The notes under the pieces: model-generated | What the model was told of the DNA's origin: nothing | The model's database searches: none | The model's input: the letters and a program-made list of their open reading frames with translations, nothing else | Made by a program: the position numbers and the translations under genes | Assembly: GCA_902388545.1 (NCBI GenBank) | Contig: CABMPS010000059.1 | Coordinates: 1-9,966 of the forward strand | Direction of reading: 5' to 3' | DNA from: an uncultured Collinsella sp. | GTDB taxonomy: Bacteria; Actinomycetota; Coriobacteriia; Coriobacteriales; Coriobacteriaceae | DNA length: 9,966 bases | Shown: positions 2,357 through 9,177 of the stretch, one piece after another | How positions within the stretch are numbered: position 1 is the first letter of the stretch | Layout: every line of letters starts with the position of its first letter

Positions 2357-2432
2357 TGTCTGGGCTTTTGTGTTTAGCGCCTTTTTGTTTGGTGACAATA
2401 ACCTTAGCAGGACCGTAAAGCTAGGAGGCGCT

Positions 2433-3398
2433 ATGTGCACGAGCATTCGATTTACCGATAATTCTGGCCACATGTATCTGGGCCGCAACCTCGACTGGAG
2501 CTTTGACTACGGCCAACAGGTTCGCGTGATGCCGCGCGGGTTCCACATTCCGTATTCGTTTATCGACGATGCGTCGGCGGCACACGCGGTAATCGGCATG
2601 TGCATCGATTACAAGAACTACCCCATGTTCTTCGACTGCGGCAACGATGCGGGCCTCGCCGTGGCGGGTCTCAATTTCCCGGGTTATGCCGAGTATGCCG
2701 AGGATCCTGCCGACGGCAAGACCAATATCGCGGCCTATGAGTTTCCCCTGTGGGTGGCAGCGACGTTCTCGACGGTCGACGAGGTCGAGGCTGCGTTGCA
2801 CGATACGGTGATTGTTGCCAAATCTGCAGGAGAGGGGCTGGGCGTGTCGCTGCTCCATTGGATTATCGGCGACAGGCAGCGTAGCATCGTGGTCGAGATG
2901 ATGGCTGACGGCCTGCACGTATACGACGATCCGGTCGACACCCTTGCCAACCAGCCGACCTTCCCGTGGCATATGGAAAATCTACGCACCTATATCACCG
3001 CCACAAGCGATTTTCCGCAGACGGCGACGTGGCGTGGCGCCGAGCTTAAGCCTTATGGTGCGGGTGCCGGCATGCGCGGTATTCCGGGTGACTGCTATTC
3101 GCCGAGCCGTTTTGTAAAGGCGGCCTATCTCAATGCCAATTACCCGCAAAAGGAGAGCGAGGCCGAAAACGTCGTCCGCATGTTCCGCTCGCTCGAGGGC
3201 GTGGCGATGATCGAGGGGGCGTCCAAGATGGGCGATGGCAAGTTCGAGAAGACGATCTACACCGGATGCTTTAGCGCTCGCACGGGCAATTATTACTATG
3301 CGACCTACGACGACCCGTCGATTCGCTACGTGAGCTTGATGGATGCCGAGGGTGCGAGCCCCGATAGGCTCGTGGTTCCCGAGCCGCGTCGCTCGTAG
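2433..3398 (+). CDS. bsh: Choloylglycine hydrolase family protein, probable bile salt hydrolase
   Basis: A 321-residue cytosolic N-terminal-nucleophile hydrolase. Removal of Met1 exposes Cys2, the nucleophile that cleaves the amide between a bile acid and glycine or taurine; some members also re-conjugate bile acids to other amines. The conserved set is present: Cys2, Arg18 and Asp21 (GRNLDWS), Asn81 (GLNFPGY), Asn173 (LANQPTF) and Arg226 (SPSRF). Asn at position 81 favours bile salt hydrolase over penicillin V acylase, where Tyr is usual. There is no signal peptide, and length matches the family. The start at 2433 is fixed by AGGAGG just upstream and by the need for Cys at position 2; an in-frame ATG at 2370 would bury the nucleophile. 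The gene appears to be monocistronic, ends at the shared terminator at 3423, and fits a gut bacterium exposed to bile. Substrate preference cannot be read from sequence. Confidence 0.9.
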   Translation: MCTSIRFTDNSGHMYLGRNLDWSFDYGQQVRVMPRGFHIPYSFIDDASAAHAVIGMCIDYKNYPMFFDCGNDAGLAVAGLNFPGYAEYAEDPADGKTNIAAYEFPLWVAATFSTVDEVEAALHDTVIVAKSAGEGLGVSLLHWIIGDRQRSIVVEMMADGLHVYDDPVDTLANQPTFPWHMENLRTYITATSDFPQTATWRGAELKPYGAGAGMRGIPGDCYSPSRFVKAAYLNANYPQKESEAENVVRMFRSLEGVAMIEGASKMGDGKFEKTIYTGCFSARTGNYYYATYDDPSIRYVSLMDAEGASPDRLVVPEPRRS

Positions 3399-3500: not shown

Positions 3501-4412
3501 TTAAGCGCGTGCCGCCTGGGCGACACCGGCCTTGGCGTTTGCGCGTTTGCCGGCGAGTTCGCAAAAAATCGCGCCGCCGATGATAAGTGCGGCGCCCATC
3601 AGGCGGACCGGTGTTATGGCTTCGCCTAAAAGGACGGCGGAGAACACGACGGCCGAAAGCGGCTCGAGGTAGCCAACGACCGCGACGGTCTGGACGGGCA
3701 GCTTGGCGACGGCACTAAAGTAGAGTAGGCAACCGATGCCGGTGTTGACGACGCCGAGCATGACGACGGCGCGCCAATCAATACTGGCGGCGACGCCGGC
3801 GGACAGGAATGAGGGAGCGCCCTGCGTGATGAGCGTGAGGACCAGCGCGGTCACAAAGGCGGCACTCACCTGGAGCGCGGAGTTCTCGAGGCCTTCGATG
3901 TGTGGTGCACCCTTGCTAGCGATGACCATCAGCGCATAGCAAAATGCCGAGGCGATGCCGCAGACGATACCCGCAATGGGCATATTGCCGCCTAGACCTT
4001 GCGCTGCAATGAGAAAAGCACCGCAAGCAACGGCGATAAAGCCGGCGATTTTGCCGCCGGTCAGCTTTTCGCCAAAGATGAGCGGGGAGAGCGCCATAAC
4101 GATGATGGGGCCGCAGTAGTACAGCAGCGAGGATACGCCGACGCCTATCGTCTGATACGCGCGGAACAGAAAAATCCAGCTGGCGCCCAGTGCGGCTCCC
4201 GAAAGGATCAGGGCTGCGGCTTCTCGGGGGCGAGATGGTGCTTGCAACGTATGGCGTTGGGTGATGGCGAGGATGGTGACAAGCGAGAAGGCTCCCAGAA
4301 AGGTGCGCAGCAGCACGATATCGGAGCTCGGCAGCGCGATAGCCGCGGCGATGATGCCGTTAGAACCAAACAACAACAATGCTGCTAAATACGTAAACAG
4401 TCCGTTGTTCAT
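3501..4412 (-). CDS. EamA/DMT-family transporter
   Basis: A 303-residue inner-membrane protein with about ten hydrophobic segments and two EamA repeats (roughly 5-136 and 147-285), the architecture of drug/metabolite transporters that mostly export amino acids, metabolites or toxic compounds. Repeat 1 carries LLRTFLGAF and the SLLYYCGPIIVMALSPLIFGE segment (95-115). Repeat 2 carries GYLEPLSAVVFSAVLLGE (247-264). Both match the conserved end-of-TM4 region that closes with GE. The tail is short, basic and alanine-rich, and probably cytoplasmic. A GAGGGG lies ten bases before the ATG, a long but usable spacing. It is transcribed divergently from a LysR regulator across a 118-base region with an operator-like repeat, which suggests the regulator controls it. 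The substrate cannot be inferred. Its 3' UTR contains the segment resembling LysR coding sequence. Confidence 0.88.
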   Translation of the reverse strand: MNNGLFTYLAALLLFGSNGIIAAAIALPSSDIVLLRTFLGAFSLVTILAITQRHTLQAPSRPREAAALILSGAALGASWIFLFRAYQTIGVGVSSLLYYCGPIIVMALSPLIFGEKLTGGKIAGFIAVACGAFLIAAQGLGGNMPIAGIVCGIASAFCYALMVIASKGAPHIEGLENSALQVSAAFVTALVLTLITQGAPSFLSAGVAASIDWRAVVMLGVVNTGIGCLLYFSAVAKLPVQTVAVVGYLEPLSAVVFSAVLLGEAITPVRLMGAALIIGGAIFCELAGKRANAKAGVAQAARA

Positions 4413-4485: not shown

Positions 4486-4530
4486 GCATGGAAAACATAA
4501 CAAAAACTCATGCAAGGGTGGGGACGTGCT

Positions 4531-5388
4531 GTGGAGACCAATATCCAAAAGATGCAAGTGCTGCTCGAGACGGTGCGTGCCGGCAGCTTTACGCGTGCTG
4601 CAGAGCGGCTGAGCTACTCGCAGTCGGGCGTGAGCCGCATGGTGGGCGACCTTGAGGCAGACTGGGGTTTTAAGGTGCTCGACCGCAGCCGCGAGGGCGT
4701 GGTGCTTTCTGCCGACGGGCGGCAGGTCATGCCGGCAGTCGAGGCGTTATGCGAAGAGTTTGGCCGCCTGCAGCGACGCGTGGACGAGATGCGAGGGCTC
4801 ATGCGTGGCAAGATCTGTATCGGTACGTTTTCGAGTGTGGCGACCCATGTACTGCCGCCGGTGATTGCGCGCTTTCGCGCCGATCATCCGGATGTCGATT
4901 ACGAGCTGCTGATGGGTGATTACTCCGAGATTGAGCAATGGGTGGCGGAAGGCCGCTGTGACCTGGGCTTTATTCCGCGCGAGCCACGCGGCGCCGGCAT
5001 GGCGTCGCGACCGTTGGTGCAAGACGAGTTGATGGCCGTGGTGCCAGCGGACTCCTCGCTTGCCACGGCGGAGGTCGTTTCTCTTGCCGATTTAGCCAAC
5101 GAGCAGTTTATTCTGCTAGAACGCGGCACCGATGACGAGATTACGCCGCTGTTCCGTCGGGCGGGACTGACGGTGTGCTCCAAGCTGTCGACCTGGGATG
5201 ACTATGCGATTATGGCCATGGTCGAGGACGGCCTGGGCGTGAGCATTCTTCCCGCGCTCATCTTGCGCCGCTGCCAGTTCGATGTTGCCGTGCGTTCGCT
5301 CGAGGGACATCCCCATCGGCAGATCAATGCGATATATCGCATGGCTGACGTTTCGCTTGCCGCCGCTCGATTCCTTGAATACCTCTAA
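4531..5388 (+). CDS. LysR-type transcriptional regulator
   Basis: A 285-residue regulator with the standard LysR layout: an N-terminal winged helix-turn-helix (about 5-63; FTRAAERLSYSQSGVSRMVGDLE is the helix-turn-helix core), a linker helix (about 67-92), and a periplasmic-binding-protein-like effector domain (about 94-285, starting GKICIGTFSSVATHVLPPVI). Members bind DNA as tetramers and usually change activity on binding a small metabolite. GTG at 4531 is preferred because GGGGA lies about six bases upstream; an in-frame ATG at 4510 has no ribosome binding site. The gene diverges from the EamA transporter, and GAAC-type inverted repeats lie between them. The likely role is control of that transporter and of its own gene. 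The stretch encoding residues 142-149 (RCDLGFIP) has a near-copy in the transporter's 3' UTR. The effector is unknown. Confidence 0.88.
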   Translation: METNIQKMQVLLETVRAGSFTRAAERLSYSQSGVSRMVGDLEADWGFKVLDRSREGVVLSADGRQVMPAVEALCEEFGRLQRRVDEMRGLMRGKICIGTFSSVATHVLPPVIARFRADHPDVDYELLMGDYSEIEQWVAEGRCDLGFIPREPRGAGMASRPLVQDELMAVVPADSSLATAEVVSLADLANEQFILLERGTDDEITPLFRRAGLTVCSKLSTWDDYAIMAMVEDGLGVSILPALILRRCQFDVAVRSLEGHPHRQINAIYRMADVSLAAARFLEYL

Positions 5389-5447: not shown

Positions 5448-5532
5448 AAATTGAACTTTCGAATGAGGTGCCGCGTTATACTGCTTGCTAAATTGAACCA
5501 TGGTTCAATTCGTGTTCTATAAATTGAACTTT
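5448..5532. promoter_or_regulatory. Palindromic operator array and promoter of the XRE-aminotransferase gene
   Basis: AATTGAACCATGGTTCAATT (5491-5510) is a perfect 20-bp palindrome. Its half-site AAATTGAAC also occurs alone at 5448-5456 and 5521-5529, each followed by TTT. The three direct copies start 42 and 31 bases apart, close to four and three helical turns, so they face the same side of the DNA. TATACT (5477-5482) is a good -10 candidate. The first half-site overlaps the -35 region, the palindrome lies at or just after the expected transcription start, and the last copy lies within the leader. This arrangement suits repression, plausibly by the protein encoded here. Confidence 0.6.
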
Positions 5533-5550
5533 GCCAGCAAGGAGGTTCCT

Positions 5551-7071
5551 GTGGCCCAAGAGACGTTTAGCGATCGCCTGCGACAGACTATGTCCGATCG
5601 CGACGTTCGCCAGTCGGACGTGATCCGCGCATCGGAGATGCTCGGCAAAAAACTCGGCAAGAGTCAGATGAGCCAATATGTGAGCGGCAAGACGATTCCG
5701 CGGCGCGATGTGGCTGAGCTGCTCGCCCGTATTTTGGAGGTCGATGTTACCTGGCTGCTTGCCGGCGACGCCGATCAAGGCGAGGCATCATCACCCCGCA
5801 ACGATTCCAAGCCCGAACCCCATCCCTCAGCTCAAATTCCAAGGAGCACCACCATGCGTACTTTTTCTAAATCCGCCAAACTCGAGAACGTCCTGTATGA
5901 CGTGCGCGGCCCCGTCGTCGACGAGGCTGCCCGTATGGAGGACGAAGGCGAGCGCATCCTCAAGCTCAACATCGGTAATCCGGCACCCTTTGGTTTCCGC
6001 ACGCCCGATGAGGTCATCAAGGACATGCGCCAGCAGCTGCCCGACTGCGAAGGCTATTCCAACTCGCGCGGCCTGTTCTCTGCGCGCAAGGCAATCATGC
6101 AGTACTCGCAGATCAAGGGCCTGCCCAATGTTCAGATGGAGCACATCTACACGGGCAACGGCGTGTCCGAACTCATTCAGCTTTCGATGAACGCGCTGCT
6201 CGACAATGGCGACGAGATTCTGATCCCCAGCCCCGACTATCCGCTCTGGACGGCGTGCGCAACCCTTGCCGGCGGTCATCCCGTTCACTATCTGTGCGAT
6301 GAGCAGGCGGATTGGTATCCCGACTTGGAGGATATGGAGTCCAAGATCACGAGCGCGACCAAAGCCCTCGTTATCATCAACCCCAACAACCCCACGGGCT
6401 CGGTCTACCCGCGCGAGGTGCTCGAGGGCATCGTCGAGGTTGCACGCAGGCATCAGCTGATGATCTTTGCCGATGAGATCTACGACCGCCTGTGCATGGA
6501 CGGTTACGAGCACGTCTCGATTGCCTCGCTCGCTCCTGATCTGCCCTGCGTCACCTTTAGCGGCCTTTCCAAGTCGCACATGATCGCGGGCTATCGTATT
6601 GGCTGGATGGTGCTTTCGGGCAACCAGCGCTGCATGAGCGACTTCATCATGGGCATTAACATGCTCTCCAACATGCGCCTGTGCTCCAACGTGCCGGCTC
6701 AGTCGATCGTTCAGACGGCACTCGGTGGTCATCAGTCCGTCAACGACTACATCCGTCCCGGCGGCCGCGTCTACGAGCAACGCAACTTTGTGTATGAGGC
6801 GCTCAACAAGATTGACGGCATCTCGGTGGTCAAGCCGCGCGCGGCGTTCTACATCTTCCCCAAGATGGATGTGAAGAAGTTCAACATCACCGATGACGAC
6901 CAGTTTGCCCTTGACCTGCTACACGAGAAGAAGATCCTGATCACCCGCGGCGGCGGCTTTAACTGGGATGAGCCTGATCACTTCCGCATCGTGTACCTGC
7001 CGCGTATGGAAGTGCTCAAAGAGTCGCTCGAAGACCTTGCCGACTTCTTCGACCATTACCGCCAGAGCTAG
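5551..7071 (+). CDS. alaA: XRE DNA-binding domain fused to an AlaA-type alanine aminotransferase
   Basis: A 506-residue fusion. Residues about 8-70 form an XRE/Cro helix-turn-helix (recognition region near SQMSQYVSGKTIP, 38-50). Residues 73-101 are a Ser/Pro-rich linker. Residues 102-506 form a complete fold-type I PLP aminotransferase closely resembling E. coli AlaA, which interconverts alanine and pyruvate using glutamate/2-oxoglutarate. Visible features are LNIGNPAPFGF (139-149), NPNNPTG (277-283), the PLP-contacting Asp308, the Schiff-base Lys341 in GLSKS, and the carboxylate-binding Arg479. All catalytic residues are intact. Start: GTG at 5551 with AAGGAGG five bases upstream; the ATG at 5500 lies inside the operator palindrome. 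The architecture recalls MocR/GabR regulators, which use a GntR rather than XRE domain. The product may be an enzyme, a PLP-dependent regulator, or both. The internal start at 5854 would give the bare 405-residue enzyme. Confidence 0.88.
   Translation: MAQETFSDRLRQTMSDRDVRQSDVIRASEMLGKKLGKSQMSQYVSGKTIPRRDVAELLARILEVDVTWLLAGDADQGEASSPRNDSKPEPHPSAQIPRSTTMRTFSKSAKLENVLYDVRGPVVDEAARMEDEGERILKLNIGNPAPFGFRTPDEVIKDMRQQLPDCEGYSNSRGLFSARKAIMQYSQIKGLPNVQMEHIYTGNGVSELIQLSMNALLDNGDEILIPSPDYPLWTACATLAGGHPVHYLCDEQADWYPDLEDMESKITSATKALVIINPNNPTGSVYPREVLEGIVEVARRHQLMIFADEIYDRLCMDGYEHVSIASLAPDLPCVTFSGLSKSHMIAGYRIGWMVLSGNQRCMSDFIMGINMLSNMRLCSNVPAQSIVQTALGGHQSVNDYIRPGGRVYEQRNFVYEALNKIDGISVVKPRAAFYIFPKMDVKKFNITDDDQFALDLLHEKKILITRGGGFNWDEPDHFRIVYLPRMEVLKESLEDLADFFDHYRQS
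5841..5856 (+). promoter_or_regulatory. Internal ribosome binding site and in-frame ATG for the bare aminotransferase
   Basis: AAGGAG (5841-5846) is followed after seven bases by ATG (5854-5856), in frame at codon 102 of the fusion. The product MRTFSKSAKLENVLYDVRG would be 405 residues, the same length as E. coli AlaA and starting at the equivalent place. This looks like the original start of a formerly separate gene, possibly still in use. Confidence 0.6.
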
Positions 7072-7146: not shown

Positions 7147-7557
7147 CTATATAACGATTCCGCAACAATGGTCGATTTCGTGCTGGATAATCTCGGCGGT
7201 GTAGCCCGAGAAGTTTTTGATGCGGTGGACGAAGCTCTCGTCCAGATACTCCACCTTAATGCGACGGTAGCGGGTGCAGGGGCGCTCGCCGATCAGCGAA
7301 AGACATCCTTCGCTCGTCTGATAGGAATTGACCTGCTCAAGAATTTGAGGGTTGTACATCAACAGCGCCCTGTTGCCGTCCTTTACGCAGATGATACGCT
7401 TGCGCACGCCAATCATATTGGCGGCGAGGCCCACGCACTCGTGCTCATGTTCATGGAGCGTATCCAGGAGGTCCTGCCCGGTCACGGCGTCATCGGGGCC
7501 CGCGTCTTCGGAAGGCAGGCGCAAAAAGAACTCGGATTTCATGATGGGCTTGATCAT
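7147..7557 (-). CDS. def: Peptide-deformylase-like protein with altered motif 1
   Basis: A 136-residue peptide deformylase family protein, shorter than the usual 160-180. Motif 2 EGCLS (83-87, metal ligand Cys85) and motif 3 QHEIDH (125-130, ligands His126 and His130, catalytic Glu127) are intact. Motif 1 reads CVGLAANMIG (41-50), with Met48 where deformylases carry the Gln that stabilises the reaction intermediate. Metal binding is expected, but catalytic efficiency is uncertain. The ATG at 7557 is chosen because GAGGAG lies six bases upstream and the sequence before it has no deformylase character; the frame stays open on to 7887 but would overlap the divergent MFS gene. It is a divergent paralogue of the gene at 1882-2301, which has the opposite defect. 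It converges on the aminotransferase and diverges from the MFS exporter. No other deformylase is visible in the window, so whether either serves housekeeping N-terminal processing is open. Confidence 0.82.
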   Translation of the reverse strand: MIKPIMKSEFFLRLPSEDAGPDDAVTGQDLLDTLHEHEHECVGLAANMIGVRKRIICVKDGNRALLMYNPQILEQVNSYQTSEGCLSLIGERPCTRYRRIKVEYLDESFVHRIKNFSGYTAEIIQHEIDHCCGIVI

Positions 7558-7761
7558 GGAGGGCTCCTCATGTCTCGTGCTTTCGTGGACTTTTAATAAT
7601 AGCGCGGAAGGAAAGCTGCGCGTCAGCGTTACAATCTTTCGACGTTGGACCATGTTGTCAGATCCGTCGCGTGCGGCGTCTGACGTAAGTCTAGGGCTCA
7701 TGCTCGCCCTGGACTGTTCCTCTGGGGCGATGCGACTGTCGTTCCAAGAGGAAGGAAATAC
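7558..7761. promoter_or_regulatory. Divergent intergenic region of the deformylase-like and MFS genes
   Basis: TATTAT on the minus strand (7596-7601) is a plausible -10 for the deformylase-like gene, with no good -35. An inverted repeat GTCAGA (7657-7662) / TCTGAC (7679-7684) has further internal pairing (CG-CGC with GCG-CG), making a 28-base imperfect hairpin or operator about 80-100 bases before the MFS start. No convincing rightward promoter pair is visible. Confidence 0.35.
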
Positions 7762-9177
7762 ATGGGAAGCAAATCTCAGCAACAAGTTCAAGTAACGCCA
7801 TCGGACACTTCGGCGTTTCTCGCCGTAATGTATATCGCAGCCTTTGTTGCTGCCTTTAACGAGAACATCATTAATGTGGCGTTGCACGACATCATGGCGG
7901 CCTTTTCGGTGAGTGCCACCACGGCGCAGTGGCTCGTTTCGGGCTACATGATCGTGACATCGATCTTTACGGCCACCATGGCCTATCTGTCCGGTCGTTT
8001 CTCGACGCGTAAGCTGCTGTTTTTCGCATGCGGATGCATGGTCGCCGGCGAAGTCCTGTGCCTGGTCGCCCCGTCGTTTGCCGTTTTGCTGCCAAGTCGT
8101 ATTTTGCAGGCTGCGGGATCGGGCATCTTGTTTCCGCTCATGATGAATGTGGTGCTATCTTGCGCCCCGCGCGAGAAACTCGGTCTGTATCTGAGCCTGG
8201 GTGGTGCCTGCATTACGCTGGGGCCGGCGTTTGGACCCGTGATCAGTGGTCTTATGTGCACGTTGTTTGGCTGGAGGGCGGTGTTCGTAGTGCCGCTGGT
8301 GGGCGGTGTCGTGGTCGCCGCCGCGGGCGCAAGGCTCGTTCGGAATGTCGGAAAGCGCTCGAACTCCACGCTTGATATTCTGTCGGTTGTTTTGCTCGCC
8401 GCTGGCATTACGGCGTTTGTGTATTCTGTAGGCGAGTTCTCGACCAATGCGATGACCGGTATCGTGACGCTTTTCGCCGCGGTTGTGCTGCTCGGCCTGT
8501 TTACGGCCCGTCAGCTCAAGCTCGTCCATCCGGTGCTCAACGTGCGTCCCATGACGAGCGTTCGTTTTTGGCCTGCCTGTCTGCTTGTGGTGGTGTCGAT
8601 GATGACGACGTTCTCGATGAGCGTTTTGTTGCCGCTCTATTTTGAGGGCGCATACGGCATGACCGCGCTTGTCGCGGGCCTGCTCATTTTGCCGGCGATC
8701 GCTTGCAACGCCGTGACCTCGATTGTGGGCGGACGCGTGATGGATGCCCATGGCGCATGGCCGCTGCTACCGGTCGGCTTTGCCCTGATTGCCGTGGGGC
8801 AGACTGCCATCTCGATGACGGCGGCAAGCATGAACATCGGCGTCGTCGTGGCGCTGACCGTTGTGGTGTATGCCGGAGTCGGTTTGGTGCTGAGCCCCTC
8901 GCAAACGGCCGGCTTGGAGACGCTACCTGCTGCCGAGCATCCCCACGGAACGGCGCTGCTCAACACGTGGAACATGATCGCCGCCTCGTTTGGCCCGTCG
9001 CTGTTTATCGGCCTGCTTTCGAGTTCTGCAGCGGCTGCCGGTGCCGCCGGCGTCGCGACGGACGTTGCCCAGGCGATTGGATTTGCGGCTGCCGTGCGCG
9101 TGGCGGCTGTGATTGCCGTTGTCGGGTTCGCGGTGTCGGTTGTGTACGCTCGCCGCGAGTCGCACATGTCGCATTAA
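7762..9177 (+). CDS. MFS multidrug exporter, DHA2 (14-TM) type
   Basis: A 471-residue inner-membrane proton-coupled exporter of the EmrB/QacA group, which usually expels drugs, dyes or bile acids. About 14 hydrophobic segments are present. The first membrane segment ends FNENIINVALHDI (32-44), the DHA2 motif normally written LDxTIVNVALP but with Asn-Glu-Asn in place of Asp-x-Thr. Motif A is degenerate (YLSGRFSTRKL, 75-85). Motif B is RILQAAGSG (113-121), with its functional Arg113. The antiporter motif C is recognisable in GGACITLGPAFGPVISG (147-163). GGAAGGA five bases before the ATG supports the start. It diverges from the second deformylase-like gene. I see no terminator before the next gene, 152 bases on, so some read-through is possible. 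A role in bile or antimicrobial export would suit the setting but is not shown by the sequence. Confidence 0.88.
   Translation: MGSKSQQQVQVTPSDTSAFLAVMYIAAFVAAFNENIINVALHDIMAAFSVSATTAQWLVSGYMIVTSIFTATMAYLSGRFSTRKLLFFACGCMVAGEVLCLVAPSFAVLLPSRILQAAGSGILFPLMMNVVLSCAPREKLGLYLSLGGACITLGPAFGPVISGLMCTLFGWRAVFVVPLVGGVVVAAAGARLVRNVGKRSNSTLDILSVVLLAAGITAFVYSVGEFSTNAMTGIVTLFAAVVLLGLFTARQLKLVHPVLNVRPMTSVRFWPACLLVVVSMMTTFSMSVLLPLYFEGAYGMTALVAGLLILPAIACNAVTSIVGGRVMDAHGAWPLLPVGFALIAVGQTAISMTAASMNIGVVVALTVVVYAGVGLVLSPSQTAGLETLPAAEHPHGTALLNTWNMIAASFGPSLFIGLLSSSAAAAGAAGVATDVAQAIGFAAAVRVAAVIAVVGFAVSVVYARRESHMSH

Follow-up and report, generated by a model that had tools for sequence, protein, structure and literature searches.

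A single gene in an uncultured Collinsella sp. probably encodes two proteins, i.e., a 506-residue DNA-binding form and a 405-residue enzyme; the former would act through an array of upstream boxes to repress the promoter that they share. By comparison of sequences, this reading builds on the fusion and its retained catalytic residues, on the conservation of an internal Shine-Dalgarno (SD) sequence and ATG, on the box array and the phasing of its boxes, and on the joint absence of the DNA-binding domain and the array. The gene, xre-alaA, lies in a stretch of 9,966 nucleotides (hereafter the window; Table 1). Where the source annotation shows a name, it is "aminotransferase class I/II-fold pyridoxal phosphate-dependent enzyme"; since this mentions only the aminotransferase, the proposed regulation is hidden from annotation.

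Comparisons were based on 261 loci including the window, which a helix-turn-helix (HTH) profile divided into 184 fused and 77 other loci; this profile was trained on motif-found fused genes, so that strongly divergent HTHs may have escaped it. L040 and L209, both among the 77, represent one record in which masked letters in the linker interrupt the fused gene, which ruled out a split pair, and dropping them left 75 loci, including one AlaA fused to a different XRE domain (L120). Removal of identical linker DNA reduced the 184 fused loci to 152 distinct genes, 47 of Bacillota type (Lachnospiraceae-type) and 105 from Coriobacteriia by source assignment; statistics were also computed for 41 representatives (<85% identity).

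Table 1. Coordinates of the fused gene, its parts and the candidate control elements in the window
Feature	Position	Strand	Basis or remark
Operator box 1 (candidate), AAATTGAACTTT	5448–5459	+	Conserved array
TTGAAC of box 1, possible -35 element	5451–5456	+	Sequence
Candidate -10 element, TATACT	5477–5482	+	20-nt spacer from TTGAAC, above usual length
Boxes 2 and 3 (candidate), inverted, forming a perfect 20-bp palindrome, AATTGAACCATGGTTCAATT	5491–5510	.	Sequence
Operator box 4 (candidate), AAATTGAACTTT	5521–5532	+	Sequence
Long-form Shine-Dalgarno, AAGGAGG	5539–5545	+	Sequence; -12.1 kcal/mol vs anti-SD
xre-alaA fused gene, 506 aa, GTG start	5551–7071	+	Open frame; architecture common to 184/261 loci
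XRE/CI-type helix-turn-helix, residues 6–71, five helices	5566–5763	+	AF2, fold, profile
Ser/Pro-rich linker, predicted disordered, residues 74–101	5770–5853	+	pLDDT, relatives
Internal Shine-Dalgarno, AAGGAG	5841–5846	+	Sequence; conserved at DNA level
Predicted short product, 405-aa AlaA-like enzyme from ATG 5854 (Met102)	5854–7071	+	AlaA alignment, catalytic columns

A phage-CI-like HTH fused to an AlaA-like aminotransferase

The frame of xre-alaA runs uninterrupted over 506 codons in the window, and its product shares 96–99% identity with the fused proteins at 19 Collinsella loci, which makes Collinsella aerofaciens or a near relative in that genus the very likely source. The original prediction had read this frame as an XRE HTH, a linker and a complete AlaA-like enzyme, an architecture borne out by Pfam, fold and E. 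coli AlaA matches. The HTH was modeled by AF2 with a pLDDT of 88 and helices at residues 6–16, 21–30, 37–45, 52–62, and 66–71. Its best fold match was the TP901-1 CI NTD (E 5e-5), and TP901-1 CI was also its best single-domain profile match (E 2e-16); two BurrH rows that topped the profile listing were set aside as sums of many weak repeats. In Pfam, residues 6–66 matched HTH_31 at 23.4 bits (gathering cut-off 27) and residues 29–69 matched HTH_3 at 21.1 bits (cut-off 23), so that the window copy falls just under both cut-offs. Among three fused relatives scanned, L036 exceeded both (33.5 and 33.9 bits), L034 exceeded that of HTH_3 (24.2 bits), and L042 exceeded neither. Model, fold, and profile agree on a five-helix CI-type HTH of the XRE/Cro-CI kind, and we conclude that, as predicted from these matches, the domain is a phage-CI-like XRE domain.

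Residues 74–100 had pLDDT values <50 and are thus predicted to be disordered, as judged from a poor full-length AF2 model (pLDDT 65) that served only for the HTH and for linker disorder. Across the 152 relatives, the linker, taken from the end of the HTH profile to the Met102 column, varied in length from 1 to 87 aa.

For the enzyme part, residues 136–485 matched Aminotran_1_2 (2e-54), and E. coli AlaA (4cvq) aligned end to end with residues 101–505 (E 1e-165), which places Met102 (ATG 5854–5856) where a free AlaA starts. All catalytic residues had been predicted to be kept, and the key PLP and substrate columns bear this out: K341, D308, Y311, N280, Y230, R349, G204, and G142 were found in 152/152 fused relatives and R479 in 151/152, the remaining row being a gap; the R173 column, also examined, varies. 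We take Lys341 to be the catalytic lysine, with the roles of active-site residues presumed from fold-type I aminotransferases. Scores stayed below the NCBIfam alanine aminotransferase equivalog cut-offs (PRK08363, 340.7 bits against 534; PRK08175, 136.7 against 647), so the enzyme part is called AlaA-like by homology and its activity is a predicted one. On these alignments, it is a complete AlaA-like aminotransferase with intact active-site residues and a predicted alanine maker.

Other genes in the window include a choloylglycine hydrolase family member (2370–3398, +; bile salt hydrolase/penicillin acylase type, CBAH 303 bits) and two different peptide deformylase-like genes within 10 kb (1870–2301, +; 7147–7887, -). 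A LysR-type regulator gene (4510–5388, +) ends about 60 bp before box 1 and is adjoined by an EamA transporter gene on the other strand (3501–4412).

An internal translation start is conserved across two phyla

In the window, AAGGAG (5841–5846) is followed by seven bases and an in-frame ATG at 5854, i.e., at the start of a free AlaA, as originally predicted together with the length of 405 residues. The AAGGAG-N7-ATG pattern has a single occurrence in the window (0.05 expected) and turned up at least once in 10 of 200 shuffles; by itself, the motif is therefore modestly unusual there, and the weight lies on its conservation. The ATG stood exactly at the Met102 column in 135 of the 152 distinct fused genes, was shifted in frame in 13, and was lacking near the boundary in 4. 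Overall, 148/152 genes had an in-frame ATG ≤10 codons upstream or ≤2 codons downstream of this column, and a nearby in-frame ATG was present in 13 of the 17 genes that had lost the Met102 ATG; chance expectations were computed for SD strength, as follows.

Internal SD strength reached ≤ -5 kcal/mol in 140/152 fused genes (mean -7.99). We compared this with a synonymous-codon null in which the same peptide was recoded with the gene's own synonymous codons (300 trials, protein unchanged): the null mean was -3.95, with 66/152 genes on average at ≤ -5 and a maximum of 78 over the 300 sets. Among the 41 representatives, the mean was -7.58 against -4.66 for the null, and 35/41 reached ≤ -5 against 19.8 (maximum 26). 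The observed mean strength thus exceeded all 300 null sets for both the 152 genes and the representatives, and the null mean of -4.66 indicates that amino-acid preference accounts for part of the signal. Other internal Met codons (n = 2074) had a mean SD of -2.1 with 19% at ≤ -5; at Met14, a conserved HTH residue, 12/144 genes reached this level. Both lineages retained the signal: any internal ATG was found in 47/47 Bacillota-type and 101/105 Coriobacteriia genes, and an SD of ≤ -5 in 46/47 and 94/105, respectively.

At the protein level, the SD core codes for Arg-Ser, Gly-Gly, Lys-Glu, Glu-Gly, Arg-Glu, and others, with all three codon phases in use, and linker peptides from one phylum do not, by eye, resemble those from the other, yet SD and ATG are retained. 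Because the linker protein differs between phyla while SD and ATG persist, we conclude from this comparison that the internal start is kept by selection. This persistence led us to reject a recent fusion carrying a relic start; it also does not support the original view of nothing more than a leftover "old gene start" and is the opposite of a conserved linker peptide with a drifting AAGGAG/ATG, the pattern named beforehand as contrary to a working internal start. The prediction of two proteins from one mRNA is in turn supported by the SD and ATG counts above.

The internal SD was weaker than -3.5 in 8/152 genes, three of which are among the four fused genes with no internal ATG close to the boundary (L211, L216, L231, and L239). 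A second AlaA was sought in the genomes of these four at E ≤ 1e-120 and none was found, which suggests that they can do without the short form.

The long frame is maintained too, alongside the internal start and across linkers of 1 to 87 residues. The best candidate long-form start had a mean SD of -9.2, a value biased toward strong SDs since the strongest of several starts was taken, and a search across the loci for a CI-type HTH in a separate frame found none apart from the masked L040/L209 record.

A candidate operator array accompanies the CI-type HTH

Upstream of the fused gene, a candidate operator array spans positions 5448–5532. Its boxes contain the only four AWTTGAAC octamers in the 10-kb window, a number reached in 0/200 shuffles. 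A strict promoter and terminator scan of the window found nothing and did not pick up the candidate -10 element TATACT. In an open k-mer count, the octamer AATTGAAC stood upstream in 38/41 representatives (1.0 expected); overall, it preceded 142/152 fused genes (2.5 expected) vs 2/75 loci outside the fused set, and the hexamer TTGAAC preceded 150/152 vs 12/75. The 150 genes together carry 629 TTGAAC boxes, mostly 4–5 each, with the consensus AAATTGAACTT, and the two fused genes without a box are L083 and L107. The inverted arrangement TTGAAC-N4-GTTCAA was found in 40/260 loci, and in the 19 Collinsella loci that have it, it sits 58 bp before the long start. The array and the relationship of the HTH to phage CI both go beyond the original prediction.

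Distances between boxes were phased at 10.5 bp (41 representatives, 249 pairs, R 0.379), which was the peak among periods of 8–14 and was matched by 0/2000 jittered sets; Rayleigh p-values for this phasing assume independent pairs and are thus no more than indicative. A box 21–27 before and a box 13–19 after a -10-like hexamer occurred together in 34 of 87 hexamer-bearing genes (other offsets, 1–10), an arrangement that was weaker in the representatives (6/23; other offsets, 0–4), and in some cases the array continues far beyond any -10-like hexamer on its upstream side.

Read on the opposite strand, the box is AAGTTCAATTT, and its core AGTTCA is that of the published half-site of TP901-1-type CI, given as AGTTCAYR in the accessible part of PMC8516035; the TP901-1 CI operators OL and OR appear in the accessible parts of PMC4941734 and PMC7250872, respectively. 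Taken with the occurrence of the boxes before fused genes, this sequence evidence ties a putative operator at the gene's own promoter to the DNA-binding domain that the gene encodes.

Across 12 genomes, a tandem box pattern was found 21 times (overlaps counted apart) in nine genomes and was absent from three, and a reversed control pattern had 0 occurrences. Fourteen of the 21 patterns lie at the fused gene itself (one of them inside coding sequence), which, with the control at 0, points to a putative regulator that acts mainly on the gene encoding it. Seven lie elsewhere; six overlap other open frames, one transposase-like by eye, and a larger regulon was set aside on account of these overlaps.

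Boxes of the AATTGAAC type also occur within coding sequence before the internal start in 6/152 linkers. The linkers of L193 and L264 (G437) carry such a box, and the L193/G437 box abuts the internal SD.

Distribution and origin of the fusion

An AlaA match at E ≤ 1e-120 was present in 153 of 296 Coriobacteriia genomes, and at least 142 Coriobacteriia rows among the 150 matches listed had, by eye, an open frame of ≥489 aa, one row being cut by masking. In the Blautia An81 family, 106/397 genomes had a match, with 39 verified as fused and 38/106 left out. A Bacillota-wide sample yielded matches in 28/398 genomes at 1e-150, including one full-length fused gene (G011, Blautia An81) and a 521-aa frame in which the match begins at residue 84 (G835).

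We next placed 42 fused rows in an AlaA tree with the other loci, reduced from 75 to 61 by similarity or masked letters; this is a quick tree in which 40 of 100 inner branches are open. All 42 fused rows fell within one 52-row clade (SH-aLRT 96) that also holds 10 nested unfused rows, and an exclusive clade of fused rows was rejected (AU test, p 0.00013), a result consistent with loss of the HTH at later points. Read most simply, the domain was gained once and lost several times, to which transfer could have added. The ten nested unfused genes had no CI-type HTH in the upstream DNA searched and 0–1 TTGAAC within 600 nt, i.e., HTH and array are absent together.

The fusion had been ascribed to a regulator gene reading through into a neighboring aminotransferase gene, with separate XRE and alaA genes expected in the same order in relatives. 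No such pair emerged: within the span searched upstream of the 75 loci (up to 1.5 kb, less on short contigs), there was no HTH frame of CI type, and an ancestral XRE-alaA neighbor pair was set aside.

Outside the main fused clade, L120 joins AlaA to a different XRE domain (HTH_3, 42 bits); the 300 nt preceding it contain no TTGAAC, and from its sequence it is an independent fusion. In this Blautia An81 family genome (L120:1111–2631), the AlaA start has a TTG a short way downstream of AAGGAA. Two Moraxellaceae AlaA genes (L077:3815–5272 and L079) have an N-terminal extension of 77 residues that by eye resembles an HTH; that of L077 had no Pfam HTH match up to E 0.05.

A proposed feedback circuit and its alternatives

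Under the reading we favor, both forms would be made from one gene, each from a conserved ribosome-binding site and start of its own. Fold-type I PLP enzymes that stand alone form homodimers or homotetramers (accessible part of PMC3870968), so AlaA would supply dimerization: its dimer would join two HTHs and thereby grip two boxes, with the flexible linker letting the paired HTHs span about 21, 31, or 42 bp on one helix face. Occupancy of the -35 and +1 regions would then repress transcription. With less certainty, mixing of short and long subunits may give one-HTH dimers that bind poorly and weaken repression, and the isoform ratio, perhaps together with the enzyme's PLP/PMP or substrate state, may set the strength of feedback.

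A different possibility is that the gene yields meaningful amounts of the long protein only, as enzyme and repressor in one, the internal SD being a fossil or a by-product of linker amino acids. The four fused genes lacking an internal ATG near the boundary would fit, and Gly-Gly and Arg-Ser linker residues do favor SD-like codons, as reflected in the null mean of the representatives. We nevertheless consider this quite unlikely, given that the mean SD surpasses every synonymous null set for all genes and for representatives, that SD and ATG outlast changes of the linker protein between clades, and that loss of Met102 goes with a nearby in-frame ATG in 13 of 17 cases.

As for the boxes, the long form might use those at -35 and further upstream to activate its own promoter, with no repression involved. 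Boxes that flank the -10-like hexamer, at -35 and just downstream, in the window and in 34/87 genes speak against activation, as does the presence of many phage repressors among the nearest fold relatives; since some arrays extend far upstream of any such hexamer, we rate activation as unlikely rather than dismiss it. It would be very improbable, in turn, that the boxes serve another regulator, such as a prophage CI or a stand-alone XRE protein, with the fused HTH inert or used for another purpose. CI-type repressors of this fold do occur in phages; however, the boxes accompany the CI-type HTH and are absent from genes without it, none precede the fusion to a different XRE domain in L120, the nearest solved relative of the HTH recognizes the same AGTTCA core (accessible part of PMC8516035), and two-thirds of the tandem patterns (14/21) lie at the fused gene.

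Repression by the long form, with the short enzyme made from the same gene, therefore stays our preferred reading. Tentatively, and with somewhat more doubt than belief, it can be extended to a self-titrating switch in which the enzyme would be the dimerization and sensing module of a phage-type repressor. One mRNA would yield DNA-binding and antagonist subunits, only long-long dimers would grip the array, and the relative use of the two starts, adjusted by the state of the enzyme, would set alanine synthesis without a separate regulator gene.

Comparison with known systems

E. coli AlaA (4cvq) matches the enzyme part of xre-alaA and has no HTH. BirA and PutA are enzyme-repressors, or trigger enzymes, and xre-alaA would resemble them as a metabolic enzyme that also controls transcription; they differ from it in fold and reaction, and xre-alaA has a second conserved start that separates enzyme-only and DNA-binding forms.

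The analogy with MocR/GabR regulators drawn in the original prediction holds for the layout, i.e., an N-terminal DNA-binding domain, a linker, and a fold-type I aminotransferase-like domain (accessible part of PMC5320631), the latter corresponding here to the Aminotran_1_2 match. It does not extend to the parts themselves: MocR/GabR proteins have a GntR wHTH, whereas xre-alaA has a CI-type XRE HTH, with no GntR family among its Pfam matches up to E 0.1, and an intact-looking enzyme. Unlike MocR/GabR as described there, xre-alaA has conserved catalytic residues, a conserved internal start for an enzyme-only form, and boxes found mainly at its own gene.

In TP901-1 CI, a flexible linker connects the HTH to a dimerizing domain, and binding is much stronger for the dimer than for the HTH alone (accessible part of PMC4941734). 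HTH fold, sequence profile, AGTTCA half-site, and flexible linker are all shared with xre-alaA, which replaces the oligomerization domain by an enzyme; its boxes are mostly direct and variably spaced, whereas TP901-1 CI uses inverted half-site pairs.

For the words searched, titles and opening lines of abstracts in the open-licence PMC literature gave no description of such a system. Enzyme-regulator fusions are known; here, an aminotransferase that looks complete, a likely repressor domain, a likely operator, and a built-in antagonist form would be packed into one gene, a shape retained across Coriobacteriia and Lachnospiraceae-type Bacillota. The gene thus offers a concrete test case for selection that keeps internal starts in bacteria, for the capture of an enzyme by a phage-type DNA-binding domain, and for the control of alanine in these bacteria.
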